Source of the DNA: Sinorhizobium sp. 8-89
GTDB taxonomy: Bacteria > Pseudomonadota > Alphaproteobacteria > Rhizobiales > Rhizobiaceae
Reading direction: 5' to 3'
DNA length: 64,000 nt
Assembly (NCBI RefSeq): GCF_030124325.1
Contig: NZ_JASKLR010000005.1
Coordinates: 186,001 to 250,000, forward strand
Positions 33,556-51,230 of this stretch are shown piece by piece. The notes under the pieces were generated by a model. That model was not told where the DNA came from. It made no database searches and worked only from the letters and a program-made list of their open reading frames with translations. Made by a program: the position numbers and the translations under genes. Numbering within the stretch: the first letter of the stretch is position 1; every line of letters starts with the position of its first letter.

Positions 33556-33559
33556 GGAA

Positions 33560-33877
33560 TCAGTCCGGTATCTCTAGATCATAGACGAACACACCTTGGA
33601 CGCCGCCTTCCGCCGCCGCAACGATTTTTCCGCCGGTCTTGCGATGTTCCGGATCGTCGAGATAGGTGTCGCGCGCGGCCGCATCGACGAAATCGACGAT
33701 GAAGCCTTCACCGTAACCTTTGTCCATGCCGATCTCCGGGCTGACATTGACGCCGATGTGCACGGCCAGCAGATCCGGAAGGCGGTCTTTCAGCGCGGCA
33801 ATCGCGGCGAAGAGCGCCGTCTTTTCGGCATTCGTCACCGCCGGGCGGAAGCGGATGAAGACACAGTGTCGGATCAT
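33560..33877 (-). CDS. Dabb (stress-responsive A/B barrel) family protein
   Basis: The product is a 105-residue single-domain protein with MIRHCVFIRFRP at the start, VHIGVNVSPEIG in the middle and VVYDLE-like FVYDLEIPD at the end, the Dabb pattern of a dimeric ferredoxin-like barrel. The biochemical role of most Dabb proteins is unknown; some are cyclases or binding proteins. It sits between the GMC oxidoreductase (51-base gap) and the glycerate kinase (4-base gap), so it is probably co-expressed with both. Confidence 0.83.
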   Translation of the reverse strand: MIRHCVFIRFRPAVTNAEKTALFAAIAALKDRLPDLLAVHIGVNVSPEIGMDKGYGEGFIVDFVDAAARDTYLDDPEHRKTGGKIVAAAEGGVQGVFVYDLEIPD

Positions 33878-33928
33878 GTTTCCTCCCGACGTGAGCGATT
33901 GCAGGAATGTAGCTGGTTCCGTCCGCCT

Positions 33929-35584: not shown

Positions 35585-35609
35585 TCGCTATTTTCCTCCA
35601 GAGTTTGCA

Positions 35610-35627
35610 ATTTGGATCGTTCCAAAT
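35610..35627. promoter_or_regulatory. LacI-2 operator candidate before the GMC oxidoreductase gene
   Basis: ATTTGGATCGTTCCAAAT is an 18-bp palindrome with a central CG and a single mismatched pair. It matches the sites at 49773-49790 and 50001-50020 in arms and spacing and lies just upstream of the minus-strand start at 35584. Confidence 0.75.
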
Positions 35628-35671
35628 CACAAACACAAAACGTCTCCGATGCGCATCTCTCGCCTACTCCT

Positions 35672-36445
35672 TCAAAGACGGCTGATGGAAAGCCCGCCAT
35701 CGGCCTGGATGACCGAGCCCGTGGCGAAGCCGAACTGCCCGCCGGCGAGCCCGGCGACGATCCTGCCGATGTCGTCGGGCTCTCCCCATCGCCGCATCGG
35801 CACCAGGCCATCTGCAATCAGGGCATCGTATTTGCCGGAAACCGTTGCGGTCATGTCCGAACGGATGATGCCGGGACGGACTTCGAAGACTGAGACACCG
35901 GTCTCCGCCAGTCTCAGTGCCAGACCCTGGCTGAAGGCGGCAAGTCCCGCCTTGCTCATGCAGTAATCGAGCCGTTCCGGCGATGTCATCGCCGCCGAGA
36001 CCGAGGTGATGTTGATGATCGAGCGCGGGCCGACCGCCTTTGTCCCGAGCATCGCCTTCAACACCGCCTGCGTGAAGAAAACCGTGCCGCGCAGGTTGAT
36101 GCCGACGATGGTGTCGAAATTCTCTGGCTTCAGATCGAGGAAATCACCGCGGACGACGGAAGCGATCCCGGCATTGTTGACGAGGCAATCGATCCTGCCG
36201 AACGCGTCAATTACCGCGTCCACGGTCGCCTGATGGGTGGAAAGATCGGCGAGATCGGCCTGGAGAAAGATCGCACGCACGCCGTACGTCCCGAGTTCCG
36301 CGAGCACGGATGCTACACCATCGGCATCGCCGATGCCTGTGATGGCGATGTCAAAGCCGCTTGCCGCGAGCGCCCGGGCGATGCCGAGGCCGATGCCACG
36401 TCGGCCACCGGTGACGATCGCGACGGGACGTGCTTTCTCCGTCAT
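35672..36445 (-). CDS. Short-chain dehydrogenase/reductase
   Basis: The product is a 257-residue Rossmann-fold SDR with cofactor motif TGGRRGIGLGIA near residue 12, NNAG near 90, and catalytic Ser/Tyr/Lys (INITSVSA; YCMSK). The arginine pair in the glycine loop is often seen in NADP-preferring members, but this is weak evidence. It is translationally coupled (ATGA) to the upstream GMC gene in the LacI-1 ABC operon. It may reduce or oxidise a keto-sugar produced by that flavoprotein; this is inference. Confidence 0.85.
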   Translation of the reverse strand: MTEKARPVAIVTGGRRGIGLGIARALAASGFDIAITGIGDADGVASVLAELGTYGVRAIFLQADLADLSTHQATVDAVIDAFGRIDCLVNNAGIASVVRGDFLDLKPENFDTIVGINLRGTVFFTQAVLKAMLGTKAVGPRSIINITSVSAAMTSPERLDYCMSKAGLAAFSQGLALRLAETGVSVFEVRPGIIRSDMTATVSGKYDALIADGLVPMRRWGEPDDIGRIVAGLAGGQFGFATGSVIQADGGLSISRL

Positions 36446-37956
36446 GGCCGAAGGTCCTCTTTAATGATGTGATCCGCGACGCGCAGCGCCTGCGCCGCGA
36501 CCGTCAGCGCCGGGTTCACCGCTGCGGAAGTCGGCAGGAAGCCGGCGTCGACGACGAAAAGGTTCGGGTGATCGAATGCGCGGCAATAGACGTCGAGTGG
36601 CGCCTCACCCGGATTCTTGCCGATCCTGACGGTGCCGCACTGATGCGACGGCGTGCGCTTGTCGAAGGCCCGCGCGAGAACGACCGGGAAGCCGGCTTTT
36701 CTCAGCACCGCCTTCAACTTGGCGACGAGATCGAGATGCGCCTGCCAATTGGTGCGCACCCATTTCAGTACCACGCGGTCGCCTTCGACCATGACCCGGC
36801 TGTCCGGCGACGGCAGGTCCTCGCTCATGGCGTAAAAGTCGATGCCGCGGGCCGAGATCTGGTTCAGCAGCCATTCAGGAACGGCCGGCATGTTCGCCTT
36901 CAGGATCGCGCCCGAGACCCGGCCGAGAAGCTGGATATTGCCGAGCGGCGGCCCCCCTGCCCCATCCGAAAGATAGAAGTCGTTGAGACCGAAGGTCTTC
37001 TGATAGATGGAATCGTTGCGGTACCAGGGGCTGAGCGCAATCACCGCACTCGAATTGTGATTCATGAAATTGCGCCCCACCTGGTCGGATCGGTTTGCAA
37101 GCCCCGCCGGATTGCCGTCATCGGCGGAGCGCAATAGCAGGACAGCCGATTGCACGGCCCCGGCCGACAGGATGACGAGCTTCGGCCAAACGCTGTGCTC
37201 TACCCCTTCCTTGACGTAGTAAACGGTCTCGATCGCCTTGCCGTCCGGCGCGGTCGCAAGCCGCGTCACGCGCGAACCGGTTTGCAGCCGGACGTTCGGA
37301 TATTCGAGTGCTGCGGTTAGCGCCGCCGTCTCCGCATCCATCTTGCCGTCGAAGCTGTTCGGATGCGCATCCCAAGGGGTCTTGCCCTTGGCGAGCCAGC
37401 GCTCGATGTCGATGCCGAGCGGCAGCGAATAGGGATGCAGGCCGATTTCCTCCAAGCGCTTGCGAACCTTGGCGATAGCCGGTTCATCCGCCACGGGCCC
37501 ATGAGGATAATCGTGCGAGTGCGCCGGCTCGGTCGGATCTTCACCGAGCCTCCCGCGCACCTGATAGAGCGCCTCCGCCCTGGAGTACCACGGCTCGAGC
37601 TCCTCGTAGGGAAACGGCCAGGCGGGCGAAACCCCGTCCCGATGCGGCATCTCCTCGAAATCCTCGCGGCGATAGCGGGTCAGCACCGCGCCGTAGAATT
37701 TCGAGTTGCCGCCGACATTGTAGTAATTGCCGGGATTGAAGCCGACGCCGCCGGCCTCGTACCAGGTTTCCTTCGGCCGGAAATGGCCGCGCTGGAAGAT
37801 CGCCCTCTGGTCACGGTTTTCCGGACGGTCCTCGATGTGACCGCCCGCCTCGAGGATCAGGATCTCGGCGCCCGACGGGGCGAGTCCCGTCGCCACGGTC
37901 GCGCCGCCGATCCCCGATCCTATGATGACGATATCCGGCTCAGTCCGCATCGCCAT
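36442..37956 (-). CDS. GMC-family FAD oxidoreductase, glucoside 3-dehydrogenase-like
   Basis: The product has 504 residues: an N-terminal FAD motif (IVIIGSGIGGATVATGLA, LILEAGG), a GNYYNVGGNSKFYGAVLTRY segment, and a C-terminal GMC domain with PSHQCGTVRIG and AAVNPALTVAAQALRVADHI. The last segments resemble bacterial glucoside 3-dehydrogenase large subunits, which make 3-keto-glycosides. The start at 37956 lies two bases past the ATPase stop; a GTG at 37962 overlapping that stop is an alternative. Encoded inside a sugar ABC operon, it probably oxidises the imported sugar. No hitchhiker (cytochrome) or small-subunit gene is adjacent. Confidence 0.83.
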   Translation of the reverse strand: MAMRTEPDIVIIGSGIGGATVATGLAPSGAEILILEAGGHIEDRPENRDQRAIFQRGHFRPKETWYEAGGVGFNPGNYYNVGGNSKFYGAVLTRYRREDFEEMPHRDGVSPAWPFPYEELEPWYSRAEALYQVRGRLGEDPTEPAHSHDYPHGPVADEPAIAKVRKRLEEIGLHPYSLPLGIDIERWLAKGKTPWDAHPNSFDGKMDAETAALTAALEYPNVRLQTGSRVTRLATAPDGKAIETVYYVKEGVEHSVWPKLVILSAGAVQSAVLLLRSADDGNPAGLANRSDQVGRNFMNHNSSAVIALSPWYRNDSIYQKTFGLNDFYLSDGAGGPPLGNIQLLGRVSGAILKANMPAVPEWLLNQISARGIDFYAMSEDLPSPDSRVMVEGDRVVLKWVRTNWQAHLDLVAKLKAVLRKAGFPVVLARAFDKRTPSHQCGTVRIGKNPGEAPLDVYCRAFDHPNLFVVDAGFLPTSAAVNPALTVAAQALRVADHIIKEDLRP

Positions 37957-37958
37957 GC

Positions 37959-39071
37959 TCACGCGATCCGCATCTGGCTCTGCGGATCGAAGAACACCGC
38001 CTTGTCGAGGTTGAAGGCGAGCCGCGACGTTTGACCGGGTGCAATGCGCGCGTCGGCGCGCAGCCGGGCGACGATTTCCTTGCCGCCGAGACGCGTGACC
38101 GCAAAGGTGTCGGAGCCGGCCGGCTCGACCACCTCGATCAGGCACTCGCCTTCCGCGACATATTTCGCGTTGCGGTCGGCACCATCGGGATCCGTCAGCG
38201 CCTCTGGCCGGATGCCGAACACGACATCCTTGCCGGCATAGGCGGACAGGGCGCCGTTATGCGGCACGGCAAGCTTCAATGGCTCGGCGTTCGGCCGTGC
38301 CAGCGTGACTGCGACGTCGGCGCCGGTCTTTTCGATGCGGGCGGTCAGCAGGTTCATCGCCGGCGACCCCATGAAATCGGCGACGAACATGTTGGCAGGG
38401 TTGTTGTAGATCTCGGCCGGCGAGCCGAACTGCTGCAGCACCCCGTCCTTCAAGACGGCGATCTTGGTGGCGAGCGTCATCGCCTCGATCTGGTCGTGCG
38501 TCACGTAGACGATCGTCGTCTTCATCCGGTGATGCAGGCGCTTGATCTCGGTGCGCATATCGACGCGCAGTTTCGCATCGAGGTTCGACAGCGGTTCGTC
38601 GAAGAGGAAGACCTGCGGATTGCGCACTAGCGCGCGGCCCATGGCGACGCGCTGGCGCTGGCCACCGGAAAGCTGGCTCGGCTTGCGATCGAGCAGATGG
38701 CCGATCTGCAGCATGTCGGCGACCTGCTTGATCGCCTTCTCGCGCTCCTCCTTCGGCACGCCGCGGATTTCCATGCCGAAGGCGATGTTTCCGGCGACCG
38801 TCATGTTCGGGTAGAGCGCGTAGGACTGGAACACCATGGCGATATCGCGCTTCGACGGGTGGAGCCCCGAGACCGACCGGCCGTTGATCGCAATGTCCCC
38901 CGAGGTGATCGGTTCCAGGCCCGCGATGGTGTTCAGGAGGGTCGACTTGCCGCAGCCCGACGGACCGACGAGGACGAGGAAACCGCCCTTCTCGATCTCC
39001 AGATTGATGTCCTTGAGGATTTCAAGAGAGCCGTAGGACTTGCGCAGGTTGCTGATTTTCAAGAAAGACAT
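37959..39071 (-). CDS. Sugar ABC transporter ATP-binding protein (UgpC/MalK-type)
   Basis: The product has 370 residues with Walker A GPSGCGKST near 38, signature LSGGQRQRVAMGRAL, Walker B VFLFDEPLSNLDAKLRVDMR, and a C-terminal TOBE/regulatory region (residues about 240-370; FGIRPEALTD). This domain layout is that of CUT1-type carbohydrate importers. It lies four bases after the MalG-type permease gene and completes the importer encoded at 37959-42292. Confidence 0.92.
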   Translation of the reverse strand: MSFLKISNLRKSYGSLEILKDINLEIEKGGFLVLVGPSGCGKSTLLNTIAGLEPITSGDIAINGRSVSGLHPSKRDIAMVFQSYALYPNMTVAGNIAFGMEIRGVPKEEREKAIKQVADMLQIGHLLDRKPSQLSGGQRQRVAMGRALVRNPQVFLFDEPLSNLDAKLRVDMRTEIKRLHHRMKTTIVYVTHDQIEAMTLATKIAVLKDGVLQQFGSPAEIYNNPANMFVADFMGSPAMNLLTARIEKTGADVAVTLARPNAEPLKLAVPHNGALSAYAGKDVVFGIRPEALTDPDGADRNAKYVAEGECLIEVVEPAGSDTFAVTRLGGKEIVARLRADARIAPGQTSRLAFNLDKAVFFDPQSQMRIA

Positions 39072-39075
39072 GAGC

Positions 39076-39957
39076 TTATCCTTTCACGGCGCCGGACATC
39101 AGCCCGCGGACGAAGTAGCGGCCGGACACGATATAGACGATGAGCGTTGGCAGGGCGGCGAGGATCGCGCCCGCGAAGTGGACGTTGTATTCCTTGACCC
39201 CCGTGGACGACGAAACCAGGTTGTTGAGCGCGACCGTCATCGGCGTCGAAAAGGGTCCCGAGAAAGAGGCACCGAACAGGAAGTCGTTCCAGATATTGGT
39301 GAACTGCCAGATGACCGAGACGACGATGATCGGCCCGGAAGACGGCAGCATGATGCGCCGGAAGATCTGGAAGAAGCTCGCGCCGTCGATCTGCGCCGCG
39401 CGCACCAGTTCGGTCGGGAAGGCCTCGTAGTAGTTGCGGAAATAAAGCGTCGTGAAGCCGATGCCATAGACCACATGCACGAGGATCAGCCCCCAGATCG
39501 ACCCGGCAATGCCTAGCACGCCGAGAATGCGCGCCATCGGGATCAGCACGATCTGGAACGGGATGAAGCAGGAGAGCAGCAGCATTCCGAAGAAGATGTT
39601 TGCTCCCGGAAAGCGCCACTTCGTCAGCACGTAGCCATTGAGCGCGCCGATGATCGTCGAGATGGCGACCGCCGGGACCACCATCAGGATCGAGTTGATG
39701 AAGAAGGGACGAAGGCCCGTCGGCTGAACGCCGATCTGCGCGGTCGACCAGGCGGAAAGCCAGGGCTCGACCGTCCAGGTCTCAGGCAGGTTCAGCATGC
39801 CGCCCTGGCGGATTTCATCGAGCGGCTTCAGCGAATTCACCACCATCACGTAGAGCGGCAGCAGGGAGTAGAGCGCAAAGAGGATCAGCGCCGTGTAGAT
39901 CAGTGCCCGCGCCAGGCGGTTGTGCGAGATGACATTGTCTGGGCTGGGAGCTCTCAT
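39076..39957 (-). CDS. Sugar ABC transporter permease, MalG-type
   Basis: The product is a 293-residue protein with six predicted membrane segments and the EAA loop EAFPTELVRAAQIDGASFFQ. The sequence IYTALILFALYSLLPLYVMV is the usual first segment of the second CUT1 permease. Its start overlaps the end of the preceding permease gene by four bases (ATGA). It pairs with the MalF-type protein to form the membrane channel. Confidence 0.92.
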   Translation of the reverse strand: MRAPSPDNVISHNRLARALIYTALILFALYSLLPLYVMVVNSLKPLDEIRQGGMLNLPETWTVEPWLSAWSTAQIGVQPTGLRPFFINSILMVVPAVAISTIIGALNGYVLTKWRFPGANIFFGMLLLSCFIPFQIVLIPMARILGVLGIAGSIWGLILVHVVYGIGFTTLYFRNYYEAFPTELVRAAQIDGASFFQIFRRIMLPSSGPIIVVSVIWQFTNIWNDFLFGASFSGPFSTPMTVALNNLVSSSTGVKEYNVHFAGAILAALPTLIVYIVSGRYFVRGLMSGAVKG

Positions 39958-40835
39958 TGGCGTTTTCCTCCCCGGATTTCGGAATAGAGGTAGGGAATGA
40001 TGATCGAGAAGATCATCACCAGCATGATGATCGCCGAGGATGCGCCGATGCCCATCTGGTTGCGGGTGAAGGTATAGGAATACATGAAGGTCGCCGGCAG
40101 TTCGGTCGCCTGGCCCGGCCCGCCGCCGGTCAGGGCGATGATCAGGTCGTAAGCCTTGATCGCAAGATGGGCGAGGACGACGAAGGCCGAGAGGAAGACG
40201 GGCCGCATCAGCGGAATGATGATGCGCCGGTAGATGGTCGACGTCTTCGCTCCGTCAATCTGGGCGGCCTTGATGATTTCATTGTCGACGCCGCGCAGGC
40301 CAGCCAGGAACATCGCCATGATGAAGCCGGTCGATTGCCAGACGGCGGCGATGACGACGCAGTAGATCGCGAAGTTGCGGTCCTTGATCCAGTTGAAGGA
40401 GAAGCTCTCCCATCCCCAGAGATGCATGGTGTTCTCAAGCCCGATGCCCGGATCGAGGAACCACTTCCACGCCGTTCCGGTGACGATGAAGGAAAGCGCC
40501 ATCGGGTAGAGATAGATCGGCCGAAGGAACCCCTCGGCCCTGATCTTCTGGTCGAGCAGGATGGCCAGCGCCAGGCCCAGCACCGAGCAGATGGCGATAT
40601 AAAGCGTCGCGAAGATCGCGAGGTTGCTGACCGCCCGCCACCAGTGCGGCAGGGCCCAAAGCCGGCTGTAATTCAGCAGGCCGACGAAATTGTAGGACGG
40701 CAGCATCTTGCTGTCCGTCATCGAGAGGAAGCCGGTATAGGCTATGAAGCCGTAGACGAACACCAGAACTATGAGAAAGCTGGGGGCGAGCACGAGCTTG
40801 GGCAAAAGCTCCTGCAGCCGGGTGCGGCTATCCAT
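39954..40835 (-). CDS. Sugar ABC transporter permease, MalF-type
   Basis: The product has 293 residues, six membrane segments, and the EAA-type loop RGVDNEIIKAAQIDGAKTST. The open frame extends to 41021 through the palindromic repeat, which is not protein-like. The ATG at 40835 with GGTGG about eight bases upstream gives a normal-length permease beginning MDSRTRLQELLPKLVLAPSF. It is separated from the binding-protein gene by a RIME-like element. Confidence 0.9.
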   Translation of the reverse strand: MDSRTRLQELLPKLVLAPSFLIVLVFVYGFIAYTGFLSMTDSKMLPSYNFVGLLNYSRLWALPHWWRAVSNLAIFATLYIAICSVLGLALAILLDQKIRAEGFLRPIYLYPMALSFIVTGTAWKWFLDPGIGLENTMHLWGWESFSFNWIKDRNFAIYCVVIAAVWQSTGFIMAMFLAGLRGVDNEIIKAAQIDGAKTSTIYRRIIIPLMRPVFLSAFVVLAHLAIKAYDLIIALTGGGPGQATELPATFMYSYTFTRNQMGIGASSAIIMLVMIFSIIIPYLYSEIRGGKRQ

Positions 40836-40882
40836 GATCGTTACCACCGTTGACGTATCGTTTCGTTCGTTCCGCGCGTCTG

Positions 40883-41040
40883 CCCCCTCAACCAGGCCCT
40901 CTCCCCGCGAGCAGGGAGAGGGACAGAGGTGCGCCAGCTCGCCCCAAAAGGGGCAAAGGGGAGCGCCGGAGCGGGCCGCCCTCGTCCCTTCTCCCCGTGA
41001 GCGGGGAGAAGGTGCCGGCAAGCGGATGAGGCAAATCCCT
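40883..41040 (-). repeat. RIME-like palindromic repeat (copy 3)
   Basis: Two palindromes, CCTTCTCCCCGTGAGCGGGG and CCCTCTCCCCGCGAGCAGGG, are separated by about 60 bases that contain a GCCCC...GGGGC stem. The outer edges (TGCCGGCA, GGATGAGG) match copy 1, and the orientation is with the minus-strand operon. It sits between the binding-protein gene and the first permease gene, the same relative place as copy 1. Confidence 0.75.
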
Positions 41041-41047
41041 CGTCCGC

Positions 41048-42292
41048 TTACTTCGCGGCCTCGACCGCCGCGGCGAGTTCCTTCACAGCGTCTTCCGAGC
41101 TGAGCTCGCCGTTGAACTGACGCGTCACAACGTCGTAGATCGCGTTTTTGACGGACGCCGGGTTGGCGTGGCCATGGGCCATGGAGCCGTAAAGCGTGCC
41201 CTTGGCATTGGCTTCGGCAAGGTCCTTGATGCCCTTCTTACCGCAGGCGTCGAAGTCGGTATCCGGAACGTCGGTACGGGCCGGAACGGACCCCTTGACG
41301 ACGTTGAAGGCCGACTGGAAGGTCGGGCTTTCGATGGCCGAAGCCATCTGCAGCTGAGCCGGAACCTTGTCTTCCGAGACCTTGAACATGGCGAACTGGT
41401 CGGAGTTGAAGGTGACGGACCCTTGCGTTCCCGGGAAGCGTATGCAGACGAAATCGGTACCCGGCACCTTCTTCGCCTTCAGGAACTCGCCCTTCGCCCA
41501 GTCACCCATGAACTGCAGGCCGGCCTTGTCTTCGATGACCATGGCCGATGCGAGGTTCCAATCGCGGCCGGAGAAGTTGTCGTCGACATAGGAACGGAGC
41601 TTCGTCATGCGATCGAAGGCTTCCTTCATCTTGTCGCCGCCGAGGGCCGCCGGATCGAGGTCGATGAAGGCCTGCTTGTAGAAGTCGTTGCCGAGCGAGA
41701 GCACGACCGCGTCGAAGATCGTCGCGTCCTGCCAGGGCTGGCCACCATGGGCGACCGGCGTGATGCCCTGCTCCTTGAACTTGTCGAGCAGCGCGATCAG
41801 TTCATCCCAGCTAGTCGGCTCCTTGCCGCCGGCCTTGTCGAGTGCAGCCTTGTTGATCCAGACCCAGTTCGTCGAATGGACGTTGACCGGAGCGGCGATC
41901 CAGTGGCCGTCATATTTCGAGAATTGCTGCAGCGCGGTTGGAACCACCTTGTCCCAGCCTTCCTTGGCGGCAATCTCGTCGAGGTTGCCGAGCGCGCCTT
42001 CCTTTGCCCAGTCGAGAATGTCGAAGCCGAGCATCTGCACCGCGGTCGGAGCATTACCGGAGGTGACGCGGGCGCGAAGCACGGTCATCGCTTCGGTGCC
42101 GCCGCCGCCGGCGACCGGCATGTCGGTCCAGCCGATGCCCTTGCCCTCCAGATCCTTTTTGAGAACATCGAGTGCCGCAGCCTCGCCACCGGACGTCCAC
42201 CAGTGCAACACTTCCACGTTCTCTGCTGCGCGCGCGGCTGTCGCCGCCAACATCAGTGCTGCAACAGCTGTCGTCGTCATCAACTTGCGCAT
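41048..42292 (-). CDS. Sugar ABC transporter substrate-binding protein (GtsA/glucose-binding-like)
   Basis: The product is a 414-residue periplasmic protein with a signal peptide ending ATAARA near residue 22. The mature sequence begins [20 protein letters not shown] and includes [20 protein letters not shown] and [18 protein letters not shown]. These segments are typical of the CUT1 family 1 binding proteins related to glucose/mannose binders such as GtsA. The ATG at 42292 has GGGAGG upstream. It is first in the operon with permeases, ATPase, GMC oxidoreductase and SDR. The sugar bound is unknown; glucose-like sugars or glycosides are plausible. Confidence 0.88.
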
Positions 42293-42405
42293 CGTTATCC
42301 TCCCGTTTGCAAGTTACCGAAGCGGAATCTCCTCCGCCTTTTTTGGATGCCGCCCGTCTTCACCGGACGGCAATGGGCCTGCGGCATGCGCCGCCCGGCC
42401 AATTT

Positions 42406-42415
42406 AAAACGTTAC
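42406..42415. promoter_or_regulatory. LacI-1 operator candidate, SBP side
   Basis: TTTAAAACGTTAC here shares TTTAAAACGTT with the perfect palindrome at 42543-42552. It lies 114 bases before the binding-protein start on the minus strand. A central CG in an A/T-rich dyad is characteristic of LacI/GalR operators. Confidence 0.55.
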
Positions 42416-42542
42416 AAATACCGCCAAGTCAAGCGCTCGGGACCGTTGCGCAGTCTTGGCACCTAAACCGACTGAATTTGCTGGATTATACGGCATCACA
42501 GGTATAGTGCAGCGCAACAAAATCGGCTCCGTTCGTCCATTT

Positions 42543-42552
42543 AAAACGTTTT
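42543..42552. promoter_or_regulatory. LacI-1 operator candidate, regulator side
   Basis: AAAACGTTTT is a perfect palindrome, embedded in TTTAAAACGTTTTC, about 70 bases before the lacI-1 start. Its centre is 137 bp from that of the site at 42406-42415, a distance compatible with repression by looping. Confidence 0.6.
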
Positions 42553-42622
42553 CATCATACGATTGCCTAATGGGTCGCGTCACGTTACAAAACCGCTCTT
42601 GATCGTTCGCAGGAAAGAACCA

Positions 42623-43693
42623 TTGGCCGCTCGCTCCAAATCCGTCAGGTCCGGCAACGGCCCGGCAAACAGCCGCGGCAAGCCGACGCTGCGCACCATT
42701 GCGGACATCACCGGTCTTGCCGTCACCACCGTGTCGCGGGCACTGGCCAACGCCCCGCAGATATCGCTCGAGACGCGCAACCGTGTTCGCCAGGTGGCGC
42801 TCGATATCGGTTACTCGCCCGACCGCGCCGCCCAGCGCCTGAAAACCGGTCGCACCAACGTCATCGCGGTCCTGCTCGAGCCGCACGAGGAAATCCTGGG
42901 TTACGGAACATCCGTGATGGCCGGCATCGCCAAGGCGCTGCAAGGCACGTCGTACCACCTGATCGTCATGCCGAATTTCCTGAACGCCGCGAATATCGAT
43001 GCGATCAACTACATCATCCGCAACAGCATGGCGGACGGCTTGATCTTCTCGCGCACCGAACCACTCGATCCGCGGGTCATGCTGCTCTCCGAAAACGGCT
43101 TCCCTTTCGTCACGCATGGCCGCACGGAACTCGCGACGGCGCATGCCTTCGTCGACTACGACAATTTCACTTTCGCCTACGAGGCGACGCGCCGGCTGAT
43201 CGCAAAAGGACGGCGCAAGCTGGCGCTCATCAGCGGCCCCGCGGGCTACACCTTCGCCGGCCACATCCAGCACGGCTTCATGACCGCGGTGCGCGAGGCC
43301 GGCTGCGCCTATGAAATTCTTTCCGACATCGATCTGGACAGCCCGGCGGGCGCCATCCGCGACCGCATTCGGCGACGTTACGCGGAAAAGGACCCTCCGG
43401 ACGGTTTCGCCTGCGGCGGCGAGGTCTGCGCGCTCGCAACGATCACCGGCATGACCGACTGCGGCCTGACGCTTGGGCTCGAATACGACATCGTCGCCAA
43501 GCAGACGTCGCAGCTGCTGGGCGCGATCCAGCCGCAGGTCGACACGATCTACGAGGATCTGACCGCAACCGGCGAGCATATGGGCCGCATCCTCCTGCGC
43601 CGTATCGCCGGCAGCACGGACGTCAATGAACTGCAATTGCTGCTGAGTCCCGAGCTTCCCTTCGAGACGCAAGCCGCGGGCGCGGCGGGCTGA
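42623..43693 (+). CDS. LacI-family transcriptional regulator (LacI-1)
   Basis: The product has about 356 residues. The N-terminal LacI HTH reads LRTIADITGLAVTTVSRALA with the hinge-linked RNRVRQVALDIGYSPDRAAQ (about 23-65). The C-terminal periplasmic-binding-like domain is of ordinary length (NVIAVLLEPHEEILGYGTS onward). The frame is open from 42563, but a TTG at 42623 with AGGAAAG about six bases upstream is the better start. The gene is divergent from the sugar ABC operon, and AAAACGTTTT-type palindromes lie in the shared region, so it most likely represses that operon and itself. Confidence 0.88.
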   Translation: MAARSKSVRSGNGPANSRGKPTLRTIADITGLAVTTVSRALANAPQISLETRNRVRQVALDIGYSPDRAAQRLKTGRTNVIAVLLEPHEEILGYGTSVMAGIAKALQGTSYHLIVMPNFLNAANIDAINYIIRNSMADGLIFSRTEPLDPRVMLLSENGFPFVTHGRTELATAHAFVDYDNFTFAYEATRRLIAKGRRKLALISGPAGYTFAGHIQHGFMTAVREAGCAYEILSDIDLDSPAGAIRDRIRRRYAEKDPPDGFACGGEVCALATITGMTDCGLTLGLEYDIVAKQTSQLLGAIQPQVDTIYEDLTATGEHMGRILLRRIAGSTDVNELQLLLSPELPFETQAAGAAG

Positions 43694-43797
43694 AGACGGC
43701 AAGAAGGGCCGGCGCGCACGGGCGTTCGGATATCGCCTCTCGATCTTTTCCGCGCGTGCCGTCAGCCTCTCCATCTTCAGCTCCTCCGGATCCGATC

Positions 43798-45306
43798 TCA
43801 GCGCGGCATCCACCAGCTGGTGCGCTGGCCGATATGCATGTTGAGCGTCTTGGTCTCCGTGTAGTCCTCGACCGCATGACGTCCGAGCTCGCGGCCAAGG
43901 CCGGATTGCCGGTAGCCGCCGAAGGGCAGCTCCGATGCACCGTCCATGAAAGTGTTCATCCAGATCGTGCCGGCGCGCACGCGGCGGCCGATGGTGAGAC
44001 AGGTATCGAAATCGCGGCTCCAGACGCCGGCCGAAAGCCCATAGTCGATGGAGTTGGCGATGCGGATCGCCTCCTCCGTCGTCTCGAAGGTGAGGACGGA
44101 GAGGACCGGACCGAACACCTCTTCCCGGGCGACCGCCATTTCCGGCCGGACGGCCGAGAGGATCGTCGGCGCCATGAACTGCCCCATGCCGAGATCGAGC
44201 GCCGCGCCGCCGTGGGCAACGGTCGCGCCATCGCCCGACGCGGCGGAAACATAGCCGGCGATCTTTTCGAGATGCTGGGGCGTGATGATTGCACCAACCT
44301 GCGTTTCGGGATCAAGCGGATCGCCGACCTTCACTTTTGCCGAGAGTGCCGCGACGCGCGCGGTGACCTCGTCGGCGATGTCGCGGTGGAGGATCAGCCG
44401 CGAGCCGGCATTGCAGCATTCGCCAGCATTGAAATAGGCACCGAAGACGGCGGCATCGATGAACTCATCGAGACTGGCATCGGGAAAGACGATCTGCGGG
44501 TTCTTGCCGCCGAGTTCGAGCGAGACCTTTTTCAAGGTCTGCGCGGCATTCGCCATGGTGAGCCGGCCGACGCCGGTCGAACCGGTGAAGGAAACCATGT
44601 CGACGTCCGGATGGCTCGTCAGCGGCGCACCAGCCTCCGACCCCGTGCCGACGATGATGTTGACGACACCGGCCGGCACGCCCGCCGCCTCGAGAATTTC
44701 ACCGAGAACGAGCGTAGACGCGGAGGTGAGCTCCGACGGTTTCACCACCGTCGTGCAGCCCGCGGCGAGCGCGAACGGCAGCTTCTGGCTAACGATCAGG
44801 AACGGAAAATTCCACGGCGTGATGATCGACACGACGCCGATCGCCTCGCGCAGCACGACGCCGAGCGTGCCGTCCCCAAGCGTATTGTAGCTTTCCCCGG
44901 AGAGATCACGCGCAAGTGCTGCGGCATAGCGCCAGATATCGGCGGCACCCGCCATTTCGCCCTTGGCCTGGCTGATCGGCTTGCCCGATTCGATCGCATC
45001 GAGAAAGGCGAGTTCATCGGCGCGCGCGGCGATCATGTCGGCGGCGCGCAGCAGGATCAGCGACCGCTCCGACGCGGTCATGCGCGGCCAGGGACCATCG
45101 TCGAACGCACGCCTTGCCGCCGCGATCGCGCGTTCGGCATCGACCTTCGTCGCCGCCTGATAGCGGCTGACGGTCACGCCATGGCCAGGCGCCACCCGCT
45201 CGATCGTGCGGCCTTCGGCGCCATCGACCCACTTGCCGTCGATCAGCATTCGGAATTCGCGGATCTTGTAATCGCCGAGTGCCTTGGGTCTCACCGGAAC
45301 CGTCAT
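43798..45306 (-). CDS. NAD(P)-dependent aldehyde dehydrogenase (betaine-aldehyde-dehydrogenase-like)
   Basis: The product has 502 residues with TPWNFPFLIVSQKLPFALA, FTGSTGVGRLTM (cofactor loop), the general base in SLELGGKNPQIVF, and the catalytic cysteine in NAGECCNAGSR (Cys297/298). The ATG at 45306 overlaps the enoyl-CoA hydratase stop as TGATG, and GGGAGA lies in front; an ATG at 45312 is in frame. It is the last gene of the LacI-2 operon. The aldehyde is unknown; context points to a sugar-derived aldehyde. Confidence 0.88.
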   Translation of the reverse strand: MTVPVRPKALGDYKIREFRMLIDGKWVDGAEGRTIERVAPGHGVTVSRYQAATKVDAERAIAAARRAFDDGPWPRMTASERSLILLRAADMIAARADELAFLDAIESGKPISQAKGEMAGAADIWRYAAALARDLSGESYNTLGDGTLGVVLREAIGVVSIITPWNFPFLIVSQKLPFALAAGCTTVVKPSELTSASTLVLGEILEAAGVPAGVVNIIVGTGSEAGAPLTSHPDVDMVSFTGSTGVGRLTMANAAQTLKKVSLELGGKNPQIVFPDASLDEFIDAAVFGAYFNAGECCNAGSRLILHRDIADEVTARVAALSAKVKVGDPLDPETQVGAIITPQHLEKIAGYVSAASGDGATVAHGGAALDLGMGQFMAPTILSAVRPEMAVAREEVFGPVLSVLTFETTEEAIRIANSIDYGLSAGVWSRDFDTCLTIGRRVRAGTIWMNTFMDGASELPFGGYRQSGLGRELGRHAVEDYTETKTLNMHIGQRTSWWMPR

Positions 45307-46085
45307 CACCATTCTCCCTTGAAGCGCGCTTCGCGCTTTTCACTGAAGGCTGCGACGCCCTCCTTGAGATCGCCGGTCTTGGCAACAAGGATCGAGCCCA
45401 GCGCCTCGACCGCCGCGCCGTTGTCCTCGCCGTTCGCCGAGGCGATCATCAGTTTCGATATTTCCAGTGCCGCCGGCCCGCGGCTTGCGATGCGGGCGGC
45501 ATAGTCCCGCGCTGCCTGCATTACCGTGCCGGTCTCGACCACGGCATCGACCAGCCCCTCGGCCCTCGCCTCCTCTGCGGAGAACATCTCGCCACCGAGC
45601 ACCATGCGCCGCACGATCTGCGCACCGAAGCGGGAGACCAGGCGCTGCGTGCCGGACCAGCCAGGCACCATGCCGAGGCTTGTTTCCGGCAGGCCGATCT
45701 TCACCTGTCTTTCGGCGATGCGGATGTCGGCCGTCGCGGCCAGTTCCAAGCCGCCGCCAAGCGCATGACCGTTGAGCGCCGCGATCACCGGCATGCGCAA
45801 GGTGGCGAGTCGCTCGAAAACGCGGTGGCCGAAGCGCACCCAGTCATGGCCGAATTCGGCCGCATCCATGCCGCCCCAAGCCTTGATATCGCCGCCGGCG
45901 GAGAAGGCCTTGCCCTCGCCGGTAAGGATCGCGACGCGCACATTGCGGTCCGCCTCGACCGCGTCGCAGGCGGCAGCGAGCGCCTTCAACATATCGATGT
46001 CGAAGGCGTTGAGCTTTTCAGGCCTCGACGCGGTCATGATGGCGACCGCGCCTTCGACCTCGATCCGGATGCGTTCGTCAGCCAT
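45306..46085 (-). CDS. Enoyl-CoA hydratase/isomerase family protein
   Basis: The product is a 259-residue crotonase-fold protein with SRPEKLNAFD near 20, the oxyanion-hole segment FSAGGDIKAWGG near 62, ALNGHALGGGLELAATADIR near 100-120, and GLPETSLGMVPGWSGTQRL with the candidate catalytic Glu. Crotonases hydrate, isomerise or cleave acyl-CoA esters. It overlaps the CoA-transferase gene by eight bases and the aldehyde dehydrogenase gene by one base, so all three are tightly coupled. Confidence 0.9.
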   Translation of the reverse strand: MADERIRIEVEGAVAIMTASRPEKLNAFDIDMLKALAAACDAVEADRNVRVAILTGEGKAFSAGGDIKAWGGMDAAEFGHDWVRFGHRVFERLATLRMPVIAALNGHALGGGLELAATADIRIAERQVKIGLPETSLGMVPGWSGTQRLVSRFGAQIVRRMVLGGEMFSAEEARAEGLVDAVVETGTVMQAARDYAARIASRGPAALEISKLMIASANGEDNGAAVEALGSILVAKTGDLKEGVAAFSEKREARFKGEW

Positions 46086-47691
46086 GGGCGCCTCCCGCGA
46101 TGCTCCGCGCGGCCTTGGCCGGCAAAGTCAGACCGAGGGGCGCCTCGTTGAACAGGGCGCCATCCATCACTTTCAAGCTGTCGGAGACGATCAGCGGAAA
46201 TTCCGATTGGTCGAGAATGTGTACCTGCAGATCCGCACCCGGCGCGATTTCCGTCAGAACGATGCCCTCGGGCGTCAGCTTCATCACGCAACGCTCGGTG
46301 ACATAGGTGACGTCCTGCCCCTGCTCGACCGCCCGGCGACCGGAGAAAGTGACGTGCTCGACCTGATCGACAAGCTTTTTCAGCTTGCCTTCCCTCTCGA
46401 TCACGAGCCGGCCGTCGGCGACCGAGAGTTTCGCGCCGGCATTGAACATGCCGGAGAAGACGATCTTCTTCGCCCGCGCGGTGATGTCGACGAAGCCGCC
46501 GGCGCCGGCCGTCACATGCGGCCGGAAACTGAGCTTCGAGACGTTAACCGAGCCGGTACGATCGATTTCCAGGAAGGAAAGCAGCGACGCATCAAAGCCC
46601 GCGCCCTGGAAATAGGTGAACTGGTAGGGCGACGGCATGAAGGCGTCCGCATTCGATGCGCAACCGAAGGCGAAATCGAGGAGCGGCACGCCGCCGACGG
46701 CCCCCTGCTCGATCACCCAGGTGACCGCCCCATGCAGGCCTTCTTCCAGCAGGATGCGCGGCACATTCGCGGAAATTCCGAAACCGAGATTGACCGCACT
46801 GCCCGCTTCGAGCTCTTGCGCGACGCGGCGGGCGATCACCTTCTGAATGTTGAATTCGGGAACGCGGAAACTATCGAGCGGGCGGAAGATCTCGCCGGAA
46901 ATGGCGGGATCGTAAAGCGTCTGCGTCGTCTGCTTCTGGTCCGGATCGACGACCACATAGTCGATCAGCACGCCCGGCACGCGGACGTCATGGGGTTTCA
47001 GCGAGCCTTCCTTGGTGATGCGCTTGACCTGGGCAATGACGATGCCGCCGTTGTTGCGTGCGGCAAGCGCCTGGTCCAGCCCGCCGAGATAGGCGCCCTC
47101 ATGCTCGTAGGTCAGGTTGCCGCGCTCGTCCGCCGTCGTCGCCCGGATGATCGCCACCTGAGGCGCGATCGCCTTGAAATAAAGCCAGTCCTCGCCCTCG
47201 AAGGCGATCTTCTTCACCACCGGCTCCGCCGCGGCGGACGCGTTCATGGCACAGCCTTCGCGTGACGGATCGACGAACGTATCGAGCCCGATCTTGGTCA
47301 TGACGCCCGGGCGTTTCGCCGCCGCCTCGCGGTGCATGTCGAAGAGAATGCCGGAAGGAATGTTGTAGGCGGCCACTTCGTCGGCACCGATCATCTGCCA
47401 GATCAGCGGCGGTTCGGCGCTGGACGGACCGGAGGGATAGGATCCGCCGATGATCTTCTTCAGGAGGCCTCTCTTGGCGATGTAATCGACACCCTTGATC
47501 CCACTCATGTCACCGGCCGCGATCGGATGCAGGGTCGTAAGGTCGCGCGGATGGCCGGTCGCGTCGAAGCGCTCGCCGATAGCCTTCAGCATCAGGTCCG
47601 GGCAGCCGAGGCCGCTCGAGGAGGAGACTGAAACGACCGCGCCGTCTGGTATCAGGGCCGCCGCTTCCGCCGGTGAAATGTGCTTGCTCAT
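46078..47691 (-). CDS. Family I CoA transferase (acetate/propionate CoA-transferase-like)
   Basis: The product is a 537-residue fused alpha-beta CoA transferase. The N-terminal half has GAVVSVSSSSGLGCPDLML and the C-terminal half has VNLGFGISANVPRIL and VIEQGAVGGVPLL. The Glu at about 328 corresponds to the residue that forms the glutamyl-CoA thioester. These enzymes activate short carboxylic acids by exchange with acetyl- or succinyl-CoA. The start at 47691 lies five bases after the afr stop. Together with the hydratase and aldehyde dehydrogenase it suggests that a carbon skeleton is processed as a CoA ester. Confidence 0.88.
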   Translation of the reverse strand: MSKHISPAEAAALIPDGAVVSVSSSSGLGCPDLMLKAIGERFDATGHPRDLTTLHPIAAGDMSGIKGVDYIAKRGLLKKIIGGSYPSGPSSAEPPLIWQMIGADEVAAYNIPSGILFDMHREAAAKRPGVMTKIGLDTFVDPSREGCAMNASAAAEPVVKKIAFEGEDWLYFKAIAPQVAIIRATTADERGNLTYEHEGAYLGGLDQALAARNNGGIVIAQVKRITKEGSLKPHDVRVPGVLIDYVVVDPDQKQTTQTLYDPAISGEIFRPLDSFRVPEFNIQKVIARRVAQELEAGSAVNLGFGISANVPRILLEEGLHGAVTWVIEQGAVGGVPLLDFAFGCASNADAFMPSPYQFTYFQGAGFDASLLSFLEIDRTGSVNVSKLSFRPHVTAGAGGFVDITARAKKIVFSGMFNAGAKLSVADGRLVIEREGKLKKLVDQVEHVTFSGRRAVEQGQDVTYVTERCVMKLTPEGIVLTEIAPGADLQVHILDQSEFPLIVSDSLKVMDGALFNEAPLGLTLPAKAARSIAGGAHG

Positions 47692-47696
47692 GGAGT

Positions 47697-49738
<2,042 letters not shown>

Positions 49739-49772
49739 GATGACCTCCCAATTCACGTCTTACCTTCTTAGT

Positions 49773-49790
49773 AATTGGAACGTTCCAATT
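49773..49790. promoter_or_regulatory. LacI-2 operator (perfect 18-bp palindrome)
   Basis: AATTGGAACGTTCCAATT is a perfect inverted repeat with central CG, typical of LacI/GalR operators, located directly upstream of the lacI-2 start. Related sites are at 50001-50020 and 35610-35627. Confidence 0.8.
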
Positions 49791-50000
49791 CCGTCAAGTA
49801 CTTTCTATTCACTTTTTTCATGCGCGTCGGCATGGAGTAACGGAAATCCGGATCGTACGAGTTCCTGCAAAATTGATAAGCCGTGCAGAGAATTAGCTGA
49901 GAAACCATGCGGGTTGGCGCTTACACGACGACTGGACGGATGATCGACTCTGGGCCGCTAATTGATCAAACGCCGAGCAGCTCGCCGATTTTGATCTTGA

Positions 50001-50020
50001 AATTTGGAACGATCTAAATT
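50001..50020. promoter_or_regulatory. LacI-2 operator candidate before the DUF993 gene
   Basis: AATTTGGAACGATCTAAATT is an imperfect 20-bp palindrome (8 of 10 pairs) with the same central CG as the site at 49773. It lies 32 bases before the plus-strand ATG at 50052. The two sites in this divergent region are about 229 bp apart centre to centre. Confidence 0.7.
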
Positions 50021-50051
50021 ATCCAGTGACCGCAACATAAGTGGAGGATCC

Positions 50052-51230
50052 ATGCCGATGACCAGCCTGACGCTACCGCGCCAAGACGGCTCGCTCGAAC
50101 ATTACCGGCTGCAGGGGACGCCCATCGCCCGGCCCGCCCAGGTTCCGACCTTCAACCGCATCGCCTACGCGGCCGCCCATGTCGTCTCCGATCCGCTGCG
50201 CGATAGTGATCCGTGGGGAAGGCCGGCGATCGACTGGGACGCGACAATGGCCTTTCGCCATCACCTCTGGAGCCTCGGCTTCAAGATCGCCGAGGCGATG
50301 GACACCGCCCAACGCGGCATGGGGCTTGCCTGGCCGGACGCGCAGGAACTGATCCGCCGTTCGCTTGCCGAGGCGAAGAGCGTTCCGGAAGCCGATCTCG
50401 CCTGCGGCGCCGGCACCGACCATCTTTCTCCCGACGCGGCGCGTTCGATCGAGGATGTCATCGCCGCCTACGAGGAGCAGATCGGCTTCGTCGAGGCCGA
50501 GGGCGGCCGGGCGATCATGATGGCGAGCCGTGCTCTGGCCCGTATTGCACGATCGGCCGACGACTACCGCCGTGTCTACGGCCATATCCTGCGCCAGGCC
50601 AAGGACAAGGTGGTGCTGCACTGGCTCGGCGACATGTTCGACCCGCAGCTAGGGGGTTACTGGGGCTCGGAGAATTTCGAGGAAGCGCTGGAATCGGTGC
50701 TGTCGATCATCTCCGAGAACAGTACCAAGGTCGAAGGCATCAAGATTTCTCTCCTCGACAACGCCAAGGAAGTGGCGCTGCGCAATGGCCTTCCGGAGGG
50801 CGTGCTCTGCTTCACCGGCGACGATTTCAACTACGCGAAACTGATCGAGGGGGAGGGCCAGAAATACAGCCATGCGCTGCTCGGTATTTTCGACGCCGTG
50901 GCGCCTTCCGCTTCGAAGGCGCTTGCCGCCTTGGCAGAAGGCGATGTCACCACCTTCCGCGGCGTGATCGAGCCGACCGTACCCTTGTCGCGCAAGATCT
51001 TTGAGGCGCCGACGCAATACTACAAGGCCGGCGTCGTCTTCCTCGCCTGGCTGAACGGCCACCAGCGTCACTTCACCCTGCCGGCCGGCCTGCAATCCGC
51101 CCGCGGGCTCCTGCACTATGCCGACATCTTTCGCCTGGCCGACCGGGCCAATGTGCTCGACAAACCAGAGCTCGCGGCGGCGCGGATGCGCAATTTTCTC
51201 GCCGTCCTCGGTGTCGAACAGGCGGACTAA
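50052..51230 (+). CDS. DUF993 / dihydrodipicolinate-synthase-like aldolase-family protein
   Basis: The product is a 392-residue protein of the DUF993 family. Its C-terminal half fits the class I aldolase TIM barrel: VEGIKISLLDNAKE places Lys231 where DHDPS/N-acetylneuraminate lyases have the Schiff-base lysine (GIKDSSGD-type). Tyr candidates and CFTGDDFNYAKLI follow. No reaction is established for the family to my knowledge. GTGGAGGATCC precedes the ATG. A LacI-2-type palindrome lies 32 bases upstream, tying it to the afr operon. I infer aldol cleavage of a keto-acid intermediate. Confidence 0.85.
   Translation: MPMTSLTLPRQDGSLEHYRLQGTPIARPAQVPTFNRIAYAAAHVVSDPLRDSDPWGRPAIDWDATMAFRHHLWSLGFKIAEAMDTAQRGMGLAWPDAQELIRRSLAEAKSVPEADLACGAGTDHLSPDAARSIEDVIAAYEEQIGFVEAEGGRAIMMASRALARIARSADDYRRVYGHILRQAKDKVVLHWLGDMFDPQLGGYWGSENFEEALESVLSIISENSTKVEGIKISLLDNAKEVALRNGLPEGVLCFTGDDFNYAKLIEGEGQKYSHALLGIFDAVAPSASKALAALAEGDVTTFRGVIEPTVPLSRKIFEAPTQYYKAGVVFLAWLNGHQRHFTLPAGLQSARGLLHYADIFRLADRANVLDKPELAAARMRNFLAVLGVEQAD

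Follow-up and report, generated by a model that had tools for sequence, protein, structure and literature searches.

Bacteria of the family Rhizobiaceae are described as reducing 1,5-anhydro-D-fructose to 1,5-anhydromannitol, which an unidentified P450-like enzyme converts to mannose (PMC12441222, as excerpted, citing Kuhn et al. 2006). The excerpt of that source also states that S. morelense was isolated with anhydrofructose as sole carbon source, that the enzyme acting after 1,5-anhydro-D-fructose reductase (AFR) is unidentified, and that gut bacteria have anaerobic routes for 1,5-anhydroglucitol and anhydromannitol; it considers a probiotic against two human neutropenias unlikely without an enzyme acting on 1,5-anhydroglucitol in air. 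The stretch of DNA considered here (the window) is 64,000 nucleotides of Sinorhizobium sp. 8-89, from contig C38 of a 7.06-Mb genome (G000), and contains an afr gene among about 15 neighboring, conserved genes that probably import 1,5-anhydrofructose and related ring sugars and burn them in an oxygen-tolerant pathway.

The cluster is a convincing functional unit. That it serves uptake and catabolism of 1,5-anhydro-hexitols and anhydrofructose, and does so in the order of reactions proposed below, has a probability of roughly 0.5 in our estimation; taken separately, a dedicated anhydro-sugar pathway that does not rely on a P450 step is likely, and the exact order of reactions is doubtful. A sequence-only reading of the window had put forward an undescribed pathway, with no described route beyond 1,5-anhydromannitol: the latter does not hold and the former is only partly right, because the mannose route is already in print, with its second enzyme unidentified (PMC12441222, in the excerpted text).

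The afr Operon and Its Operator

Proteins of the window were scanned with Pfam and NCBIfam and compared with PDB entries; coordinates are those of open reading frames (ORFs) and their translations. One portion of the cluster consists of a five-gene operon, in which a coenzyme A (CoA) transferase (CoAT), an enoyl-CoA hydratase (ECH) and an aldehyde dehydrogenase (ALDH) follow lacI and afr, and a DUF993 gene:

48695-49756, minus strand: LacI1 regulator (PF00356 and PF13377)
47697-48698, minus strand: afr, predicted 1,5-anhydro-D-fructose reductase (PDB 4koa, 686.7 bits; 2glx, 628 bits)
46078-47691, minus strand: family I CoA transferase (PF01144, 98.5 bits; PDB 2ahu, YdiF, 376.5 bits)
45306-46085, minus strand: enoyl-CoA hydratase/crotonase (PF00378, 184 bits)
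43798-45312, minus strand: aldehyde dehydrogenase (PF00171, 559 bits)
49774-49789, no strand: LacI1 operator 5' of lacI-afr-CoAT-ECH-ALDH (palindrome scan)
50003-50018, no strand: LacI1 operator 5' of DUF993 (palindrome scan)
50052-51230, plus strand: DUF993 protein, predicted DHDPS/NAL fold (PF06187, 617.8 bits)

Judged by its sequence, the afr product is a 1,5-anhydro-D-fructose reductase, and the AFR reaction is the only one in the cluster known for its family. Both leading PDB matches, 4koa and 2glx (the latter, we assume, the S. morelense enzyme), bear that name, the next entry drops to 125.5 bits, and the gene is 93% identical to that of S. meliloti Ak57. The residues expected from the characterized enzyme are all present, numbered one higher here: Lys95, Asp177 and His181, which we take to be catalytic, and Ser11, Ala14 and Ser34, presumably cofactor residues. 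An AFR match of more than 40% identity occurs in 52 of 56 loci, and in these the residues are kept without exception (52/52) apart from Ser34 (51/52). The partner enzymes are similarly constrained. Glu332 of the CoA transferase Glu-Gln-Gly motif (541-amino-acid reading of a longer ORF), presumably the catalytic glutamate, is kept in 54/54 loci; of the crotonase residues that we take to be catalytic, Glu114 is kept in 53/53 and Glu134 in 52/53, the remaining locus not being covered at that position.

The gene order lacI-afr-CoA transferase-enoyl-CoA hydratase-aldehyde dehydrogenase and its tight junctions, both claimed earlier, are confirmed by ORFs and Pfam matches: lacI and afr overlap by 4 bp, afr and CoAT are separated by 5 bp, and the CoAT/ECH and ECH/ALDH overlaps are 8 and 7 bp. 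So is the shared operator of the lacI-afr operon and DUF993, with sites at 49774 and 50003. The palindrome TTTGGAACGWTCCAAA, at two or fewer mismatches, lies at these two positions and at 35611, thus 5' of lacI-afr, DUF993 and GMC2-Dabb-glycerate kinase (described below). At three or fewer mismatches the window has 8 strand-wise matches (0.67 expected). Across the 7.06-Mb genome, one mismatch or fewer gives 2 places, both in the cluster, and two or fewer give 6, of which 3 are in the cluster and the others on contigs C3, C20 and C30; a reversed control pattern of TTTGGAACGWTCCAAA gave zero matches across the genome.

The window included, 40 of 56 loci scanned have at least one operator site (two or fewer mismatches), and 13 of the other 16, all Mesorhizobium, carry an operator variant. 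Sites appear at the Caballeronia locus once it is extended (L135); none was found at L009 or at the Aquabacterium locus (L070, extended as L132). The strongest single indication of joint action by AFR, ECH, CoAT and DUF993 comes from Oryzibacter, where the set is split: LacI-AFR-ECH (L130) lies on a contig of 155184 bases and glycerate kinase-Dabb-GMC2-SDR-GMC1-ALDH-CoAT|DUF993 (L048) on one of 299940 bases, and the operator is present at both loci.

Conservation and Co-occurrence

ORF calling by length is unreliable at this GC content; gene order in relatives was read by tblastn with the window proteins over limited stretches. The contig scan of relatives took the best 80 of 578, and its loci are biased toward this cluster's type. 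Judged by the window proteins, the nearest named relatives of this genome are Sinorhizobium/Ensifer. From the plasmid collection 7 of 20 records were opened, and six loci (L003-L008) were re-read by tblastn. LacI, AFR, CoAT, ECH, ALDH, the sugar-binding protein, GMC1 and GMC2 are present in all six, DUF993 and the SDR in five, and glycerate kinase or Dabb in four; neither of these last was seen in L007, and L006 has an annotated glycerate kinase that runs off the stretch read.

Among 247 Rhizobiaceae genomes (thresholds E 1e-120 for AFR, 1e-80 for DUF993 and 1e-200 for CoAT), AFR was found in 64, DUF993 in 92 and both in 63. CoA transferase occurs in 81, including all 64 with AFR, and in 62 of these it lies on the same strand less than 300 bp from AFR; in the two exceptions AFR is 773 bp from a contig start, or there is a 2.2-kb gap. 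DUF993 is on the opposite strand less than 3 kb from AFR in 48/64, on the same strand 11-14 kb off in 12/64 and on another contig in 3/64; in one (G496) it was not found. Of the 12 genomes in which AFR and DUF993 lie 11-14 kb apart, five were read (L100-L104). Each has the string AFR-CoAT-ECH-ABC-GMC1-SDR-GMC2-DUF993 on a single strand; four of them include ALDH, and in two the glycerate kinase comes into view.

Farther afield, 289 genomes sampled more sparsely across the class have AFR (E 1e-80) in 3, this genome included; of the other two loci, L133 reads LacI-AFR-CoAT-ECH-ALDH-ABC-GMC1 and L134 has AFR without these neighbors in the 19.9 kb read. The string is complete down to Dabb and glycerate kinase in Aquabacterium humicola (L132 with L070), a betaproteobacterium. 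The Caballeronia cluster (L051, L135) has its AFR-GMC1 pair on the strand opposite the rest, and a Bradyrhizobium plasmid (L009) carries AFR and GMC1 (62% identical) alone; GMC1 is therefore a likely partner of AFR, in keeping with the proposed pairing of AFR with a GMC flavoprotein. Overall, AFR, CoAT, ECH, ALDH, DUF993 and the GMC flavoproteins do form one conserved set with a common operator.

The Wider Cluster

The cluster extends from 32284 to 51230. The limits first given (43798-51230) were too narrow: the transporter, both GMC genes, and the SDR, Dabb and glycerate kinase genes (32284-42292) belong to it as well. Its other features, including the genes of an ATP-binding cassette (ABC) transporter, are:

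32284-33555, minus strand: glycerate 2-kinase, MOFRL type (DUF4147 and MOFRL Pfam matches)
33560-33877, minus strand: Dabb (stress-responsive A/B barrel) protein, 105 amino acids (PF07876, 60 bits; translation)
33929-35584, minus strand: GMC2, choline-dehydrogenase-like GMC oxidoreductase (Pfam GMC_oxred_N and C)
35611-35626, no strand: LacI1 operator 5' of GMC2-Dabb-glycerate kinase, TTTGGAACGATCCAAA, the genome's best match
35672-36445, minus strand: SDR, named 3-ketoacyl-ACP reductase (NCBIfam NF009386, 375.5 bits, above its cut-off of 250)
36442-37962, minus strand: GMC1, FAD glucose/fructose dehydrogenase kind (PDB 6a2u, glucose dehydrogenase, 142.6 bits)
37959-39071, minus strand: sugar ABC transporter ATPase, MalK-like (ABC_tran and OB_MalK)
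39076-39957, minus strand: ABC permease B (BPD_transp_1)
39954-40823, minus strand: ABC permease A, start approximate (BPD_transp_1)
41048-42292, minus strand: sugar-binding protein (SBP_bac_1), by gene order the counterpart of S. meliloti SMc04396
42403-42418, no strand: weaker LacI-type palindrome 5' of the transporter operon, 3 mismatches to the LacI1 consensus
42563-43693, plus strand: LacI2, second LacI-family regulator (Pfam)

The glycerate kinase scores 234 bits against NCBIfam glycerate 2-kinase (below the cut-off of 550) and 288.7 bits against PDB 2b8n, a glycerate kinase; GMC2 scores 584 bits against NCBIfam choline dehydrogenase, below the cut-off of 605. In several relatives the Dabb gene adjoins GMC2 or the glycerate kinase. 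The start of GMC1 was set from a 1521-bp homologue in L003; the protein is probably cytoplasmic, with no signal peptide apparent by eye. LacI2 is present in L004-L006 and missing from L003, L007 and L008, and the weaker palindrome is perhaps its site.

Substrate Supply

Anhydrofructose derives from alpha-glucans (dextrin) by the action of glucan lyase. No GH31 (glucan lyase) match was found in this genome, which speaks against a glucan lyase made by the same cell, and anhydrofructose would therefore have to be imported. Kuhn et al. 2006 is said to name Smc04400, and the dextrin induction of SMc04396, the counterpart of the sugar-binding protein, reportedly originates with Mauchline et al. 2006. 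Neither a gene cluster like this one for anhydrofructose nor SMc04400 was found in the open-licence literature; subscription papers may differ. The induction itself is reported in the part of PMC4960864 that was available. Together with AFR itself and the isolation of a relative on anhydrofructose, the dextrin induction and the missing GH31 match favor an anhydro-sugar as the substrate.

A metabolomic study found 1,5-anhydroglucitol in alfalfa roots, at higher levels with rhizobial inoculation in the unstressed control and at lower ones under alkali stress, directions that depend on an inferred column order (PMC5504246, in part). Counterparts SMc04390-SMc04396 were assigned from gene order in L003 and published annotations; by this assignment SMc04390-SMc04392, the presumed counterparts of GMC2, SDR and GMC1, fall together in one PhaR-dependent protein module (PMC12542648, in part).

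The DUF993 Protein

The structure predicted for the DUF993 protein (pLDDT 93.2, from 52 sequences) matches PDB 4dnh (Z 59, 57% identical) as the same fold over 383 residues, and resembles dihydrodipicolinate synthase (DHDPS) entries (VIA Z about 31, root-mean-square deviation 2.2 over about 285 residues; Foldseek E 4e-10). On this model it is a DHDPS/NAL superfamily fold, a (beta/alpha)8 barrel with C-terminal helices. Lys231, invariant in the 52 sequences, aligns with the DHDPS Schiff-base lysine (hhalign E 6.7e-6, probability 84.7). The profile alignment with DHDPS starts at residue 92 or 93, so that the GxxG carboxylate-binding motif lies outside it. A role for DUF993 was not found in the open-licence literature; here too, subscription papers may differ.

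The same genome has a second DUF993 gene (G000:C8:75301-76461; L010:10299-11462), flanked by Gfo/Idh/MocA genes in a run with a xylose-isomerase-like TIM barrel and an enolase-like protein, and adjoining a TetR regulator and a sugar ABC transporter. DUF993 is accompanied by a Gfo gene related to the one in this run in 32 of 80 loci, from Proteobacteria to Paenibacillus. Two proteins of the second DUF993 operon, SMc04132 and SMc04133, fall together in one PhaR-dependent module (PMC12542648, in part). A third context, seen at L113 (G504:C3) and L071 (Raoultella planticola), places DUF993 close to acyl-CoA dehydrogenase, electron-transfer flavoprotein (ETF) subunits and ETF-quinone oxidoreductase. 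At L113 these are joined by CoA transferase, crotonase and glycerate kinase, of which L071 showed no more than a CoA-transferase-like fragment at the edge of the locus, without a Pfam match; it looks as if a sugar acid is processed there by a beta-oxidation-like sequence. No AFR was found at E 1e-60 in Raoultella and Dryocola, which have another DUF993 context.

A Possible Route

Beyond AFR the assignments proposed here, and their chemistry, are inferred from gene anatomy. The ABC transporter would import the compound, and GMC1 would oxidize 1,5-anhydroglucitol to anhydrofructose, which AFR with NADPH would reduce to 1,5-anhydromannitol. GMC2 and aldehyde dehydrogenase would then oxidize C6, giving 1,5-anhydro-mannuronate (C6H10O6), and the CoA transferase would form its thioester, acidifying H5. 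The crotonase would eliminate water across C5/C4 to give an enol ether; hydration of this ether would open the ring and yield 2-keto-3-deoxy-D-gluconate (C6H10O6). The DUF993 protein, through its putative Schiff-base lysine, would split this to pyruvate and D-glyceraldehyde, and an aldehyde dehydrogenase and the glycerate 2-kinase would carry the latter to 2-phosphoglycerate.

The bookkeeping of this scheme is consistent: oxidized anhydromannitol, 2-keto-3-deoxygluconate, and pyruvate plus glyceraldehyde all sum to C6H10O6. Activation and ring opening would thus be a net isomerization, so that a transferase can recycle the CoA, and a CoA transferase with a crotonase is what a redox-neutral dehydration-rehydration would need. 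On Fischer projections the D-erythro product arises from the manno isomer, and the gluco isomer would end as L-threo; the inversion at C2 from anhydroglucitol through anhydrofructose to anhydromannitol would be explained because only the manno isomer gives a D-configured product. H5 and O4 share one face, and the ring holds the chain carbon in a position trans to the thioester; crotonases prefer same-face elimination of this type and a trans chain carbon.

As far as the open-licence literature shows, such chemistry would be new. Its boldest form, likewise doubtful, is an aerobic, P450-free route for 1,5-anhydroglucitol, anhydrofructose and anhydromannitol in which the crotonase would open the ether ring by dehydration and rehydration, turning anhydro-mannuronyl-CoA into 2-keto-3-deoxy-D-gluconate; the purpose of AFR would be to fix the stereochemistry, and DUF993 would represent a new class of DHDPS-fold lyase.

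Observations That Do Not Fit

Several observations weigh against a pathway of this kind built around AFR. The first concern the chemistry: adding water to C5 of the enol ether is not normal crotonase regiochemistry and is the weak point of the scheme. That hydration might be the task of the Dabb protein or need no enzyme at all; as proposed, neither the SDR nor Dabb has a step of its own. In the DUF993 profile, compared with eight DHDPS-family proteins of the same genome, His190 aligns with their invariant catalytic Tyr after strand 5. Because of this the protein is not classed as a classical aldolase, and a DHDPS-fold member without the catalytic Tyr is a dehydratase lacking aldol cleavage (PMC9795676, in the part available), a precedent that makes cleavage by DUF993 uncertain. 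The cleavage is plausible all the same, and the earlier description as aldolase-like is borne out by the fold and the aligned Schiff-base lysine. DUF993 also follows the distribution of AFR and not that of CoAT, a pattern not expected of a protein acting only at the end of the route, and one that the proposed order of reactions does not explain.

The second group concerns distribution. Seventeen Rhizobiaceae genomes have the CoA transferase without AFR, and the seven of these that were read (L136-L142) all have LacI, CoAT, ECH, ALDH and an operator site; AFR and DUF993 were not found beside this core, although four have DUF993 elsewhere. With sister clusters that keep the same operator and lack AFR or DUF993, the core is therefore not AFR-specific. 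In L007, where DUF993 and SDR are missing, AFR and the core stand alongside a Gfo gene of the sister-cluster type and an annotated FAD-binding protein. In another family, L134 has an AFR 66% identical, and CoAT, GMC1 and DUF993 were not found in the 19.9 kb read there. In Polaromonas, which has DUF993-LacI-CoAT-ECH-SDR, the one AFR-like gene is 46% identical and lies elsewhere, and a Mesorhizobium genome (L047) has the cluster with no AFR at E 1e-60. Two further points are external: the dextrin induction may reflect another component of dextrin, and there is the published anhydromannitol-to-mannose route in a related bacterium, with P450 in all 64 AFR genomes.

The core is thus a chassis with exchangeable parts, of which AFR is one option: the idea of a pathway around AFR stands for the conserved AFR-containing set, and is weakened in that AFR is not obligatory for the core. 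The AFR-less clusters give some idea of what is exchanged. Transporter and GMC1 follow the core in five of the seven, the contig ending in the other two. Five clusters were extended, and in four of them another Gfo/Idh/MocA match, 26-30% identical to AFR, lies 3' of GMC2; for two of these enzymes the best NCBIfam match is levoglucosan dehydrogenase (300 and 307 bits, below the cut-off of 650), and the best PDB match of one is 6a3f. SDR, GMC2 and Dabb are retained in the fifth (G355, L139/L147). Three genomes with AFR-less clusters have FAD flavoproteins of about 700 amino acids (Pfam); the two scanned further resemble fumarate reductase, L-aspartate oxidase and SdhA, far below cut-offs (by PDB, one only). 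An AIPR (abortive infection) gene (L139:13261-15348) lies near one AFR-less cluster.

Alternative Explanations

One possibility is that the cluster degrades a different plant-derived ring compound, such as a C-glycoside fragment, an inositol derivative, levoglucosan or some other rare sugar, and that the in vitro action of AFR on anhydrofructose is incidental. AFR does act on other 2-keto sugars, the core occurs without AFR beside the levoglucosan-dehydrogenase-like (below cut-off) Gfo/Idh/MocA enzyme and an FAD flavoprotein, and in the second DUF993 operon of the same genome the partners of DUF993 are different Gfo/Idh/MocA genes and an isomerase-like TIM barrel. Set against these are the strict retention of the AFR residues, the co-inheritance of AFR, CoAT and DUF993, and the isolation of S. 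morelense on anhydrofructose (PMC12441222, as excerpted). On balance we regard a different substrate as rather unlikely.

Another possibility is that the published route operates as described: AFR makes anhydromannitol, hydroxylation of C1 by an unlinked P450-like enzyme then yields mannose, and the CoA, crotonase and DUF993 genes belong to some other process that uses the same transporter. The route is stated in print (PMC12441222, in part, citing Kuhn et al. 2006), and P450 is present in 64/64 genomes with AFR vs 163/183 without (p = 0.003). However, 227 of the 247 genomes have P450, and 11 of the 20 that do not are smaller than 3 Mb; co-occurrence with P450, found in so many genomes and in all with AFR, is uninformative as a test of this route. 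Neither the cluster nor the contigs with the remaining operator-like places (C3, C20, C30) contain a P450: the nearest, at C38:348544, is about 110 kb off, and the others are on C17, C1 and C27. No mannose-use gene was recognized among the Pfam matches of the cluster, and CoAT adjoins AFR in nearly every genome that has it (the 62/64 given above). The absence of P450 from the cluster suggests a second route, and we consider the published one, as an account of this cluster, unlikely.

An anaerobic route was rejected: no glycyl-radical enzyme is in the cluster, and the genome's single PFL-like gene is on contig C25, unlinked to it. This glycyl-radical enzyme gene (G000:C25:5948-7516, 277.5 bits) lies in a rhizobial genome that is presumably aerobic. 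Chance assembly of a sugar transporter and unrelated oxidoreductases is extremely improbable and was rejected, since, although the protein families concerned are for the most part large and common, the genes share a rare operator, collinear operons that extend to Aquabacterium, and near-perfect co-occurrence.

Comparison with Known Systems

The cluster provides a small set of candidate genes, together with a regulator and an operator, in relatives of a standard laboratory species. If the CoA route proposed for it is true, it would add a new means of cyclic-ether opening to sugar metabolism, and a function for DUF993.

The lower half of the non-phosphorylative Entner-Doudoroff pathway uses a DHDPS-fold enzyme, an aldehyde dehydrogenase and a MOFRL glycerate 2-kinase. 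The cluster has the ALDH and MOFRL kinase families and a DHDPS-fold protein; it differs in that its upper half would start from an anhydro-polyol and proceed via a CoA thioester, and in that DUF993 is without the usual Tyr. The levoglucosan dehydrogenase pathway acts on a 1,6-anhydro bond, by C3 oxidation and elimination without CoA; the likeness is that of a Gfo/Idh/MocA oxidoreductase working on an anhydro-sugar, and a relative of that enzyme is present in two scanned AFR-less sister clusters. For the DUF993 protein the comparison is with 4dnh (SMc04132), which has the same fold and is 57% identical; the entry is titled hypothetical protein SMc04132 of S. meliloti and has no function assigned to it.

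The gut-bacterial routes (YbiW and PflD; Ma et al., in the excerpt of PMC12441222) have the same substrates as proposed here, but use phosphotransferase system (PTS) phosphorylation and oxygen-sensitive glycyl-radical enzymes, and the cluster has neither. With anhydrofructose use in S. morelense (same excerpt) the cluster has in common the enzyme family, the bacterial family and an aerobic conversion of anhydrofructose to 1,5-anhydromannitol; where that route continues by P450-like C1 hydroxylation to mannose, the cluster instead has a CoA transferase, a crotonase, a DUF993 protein and a glycerate kinase.

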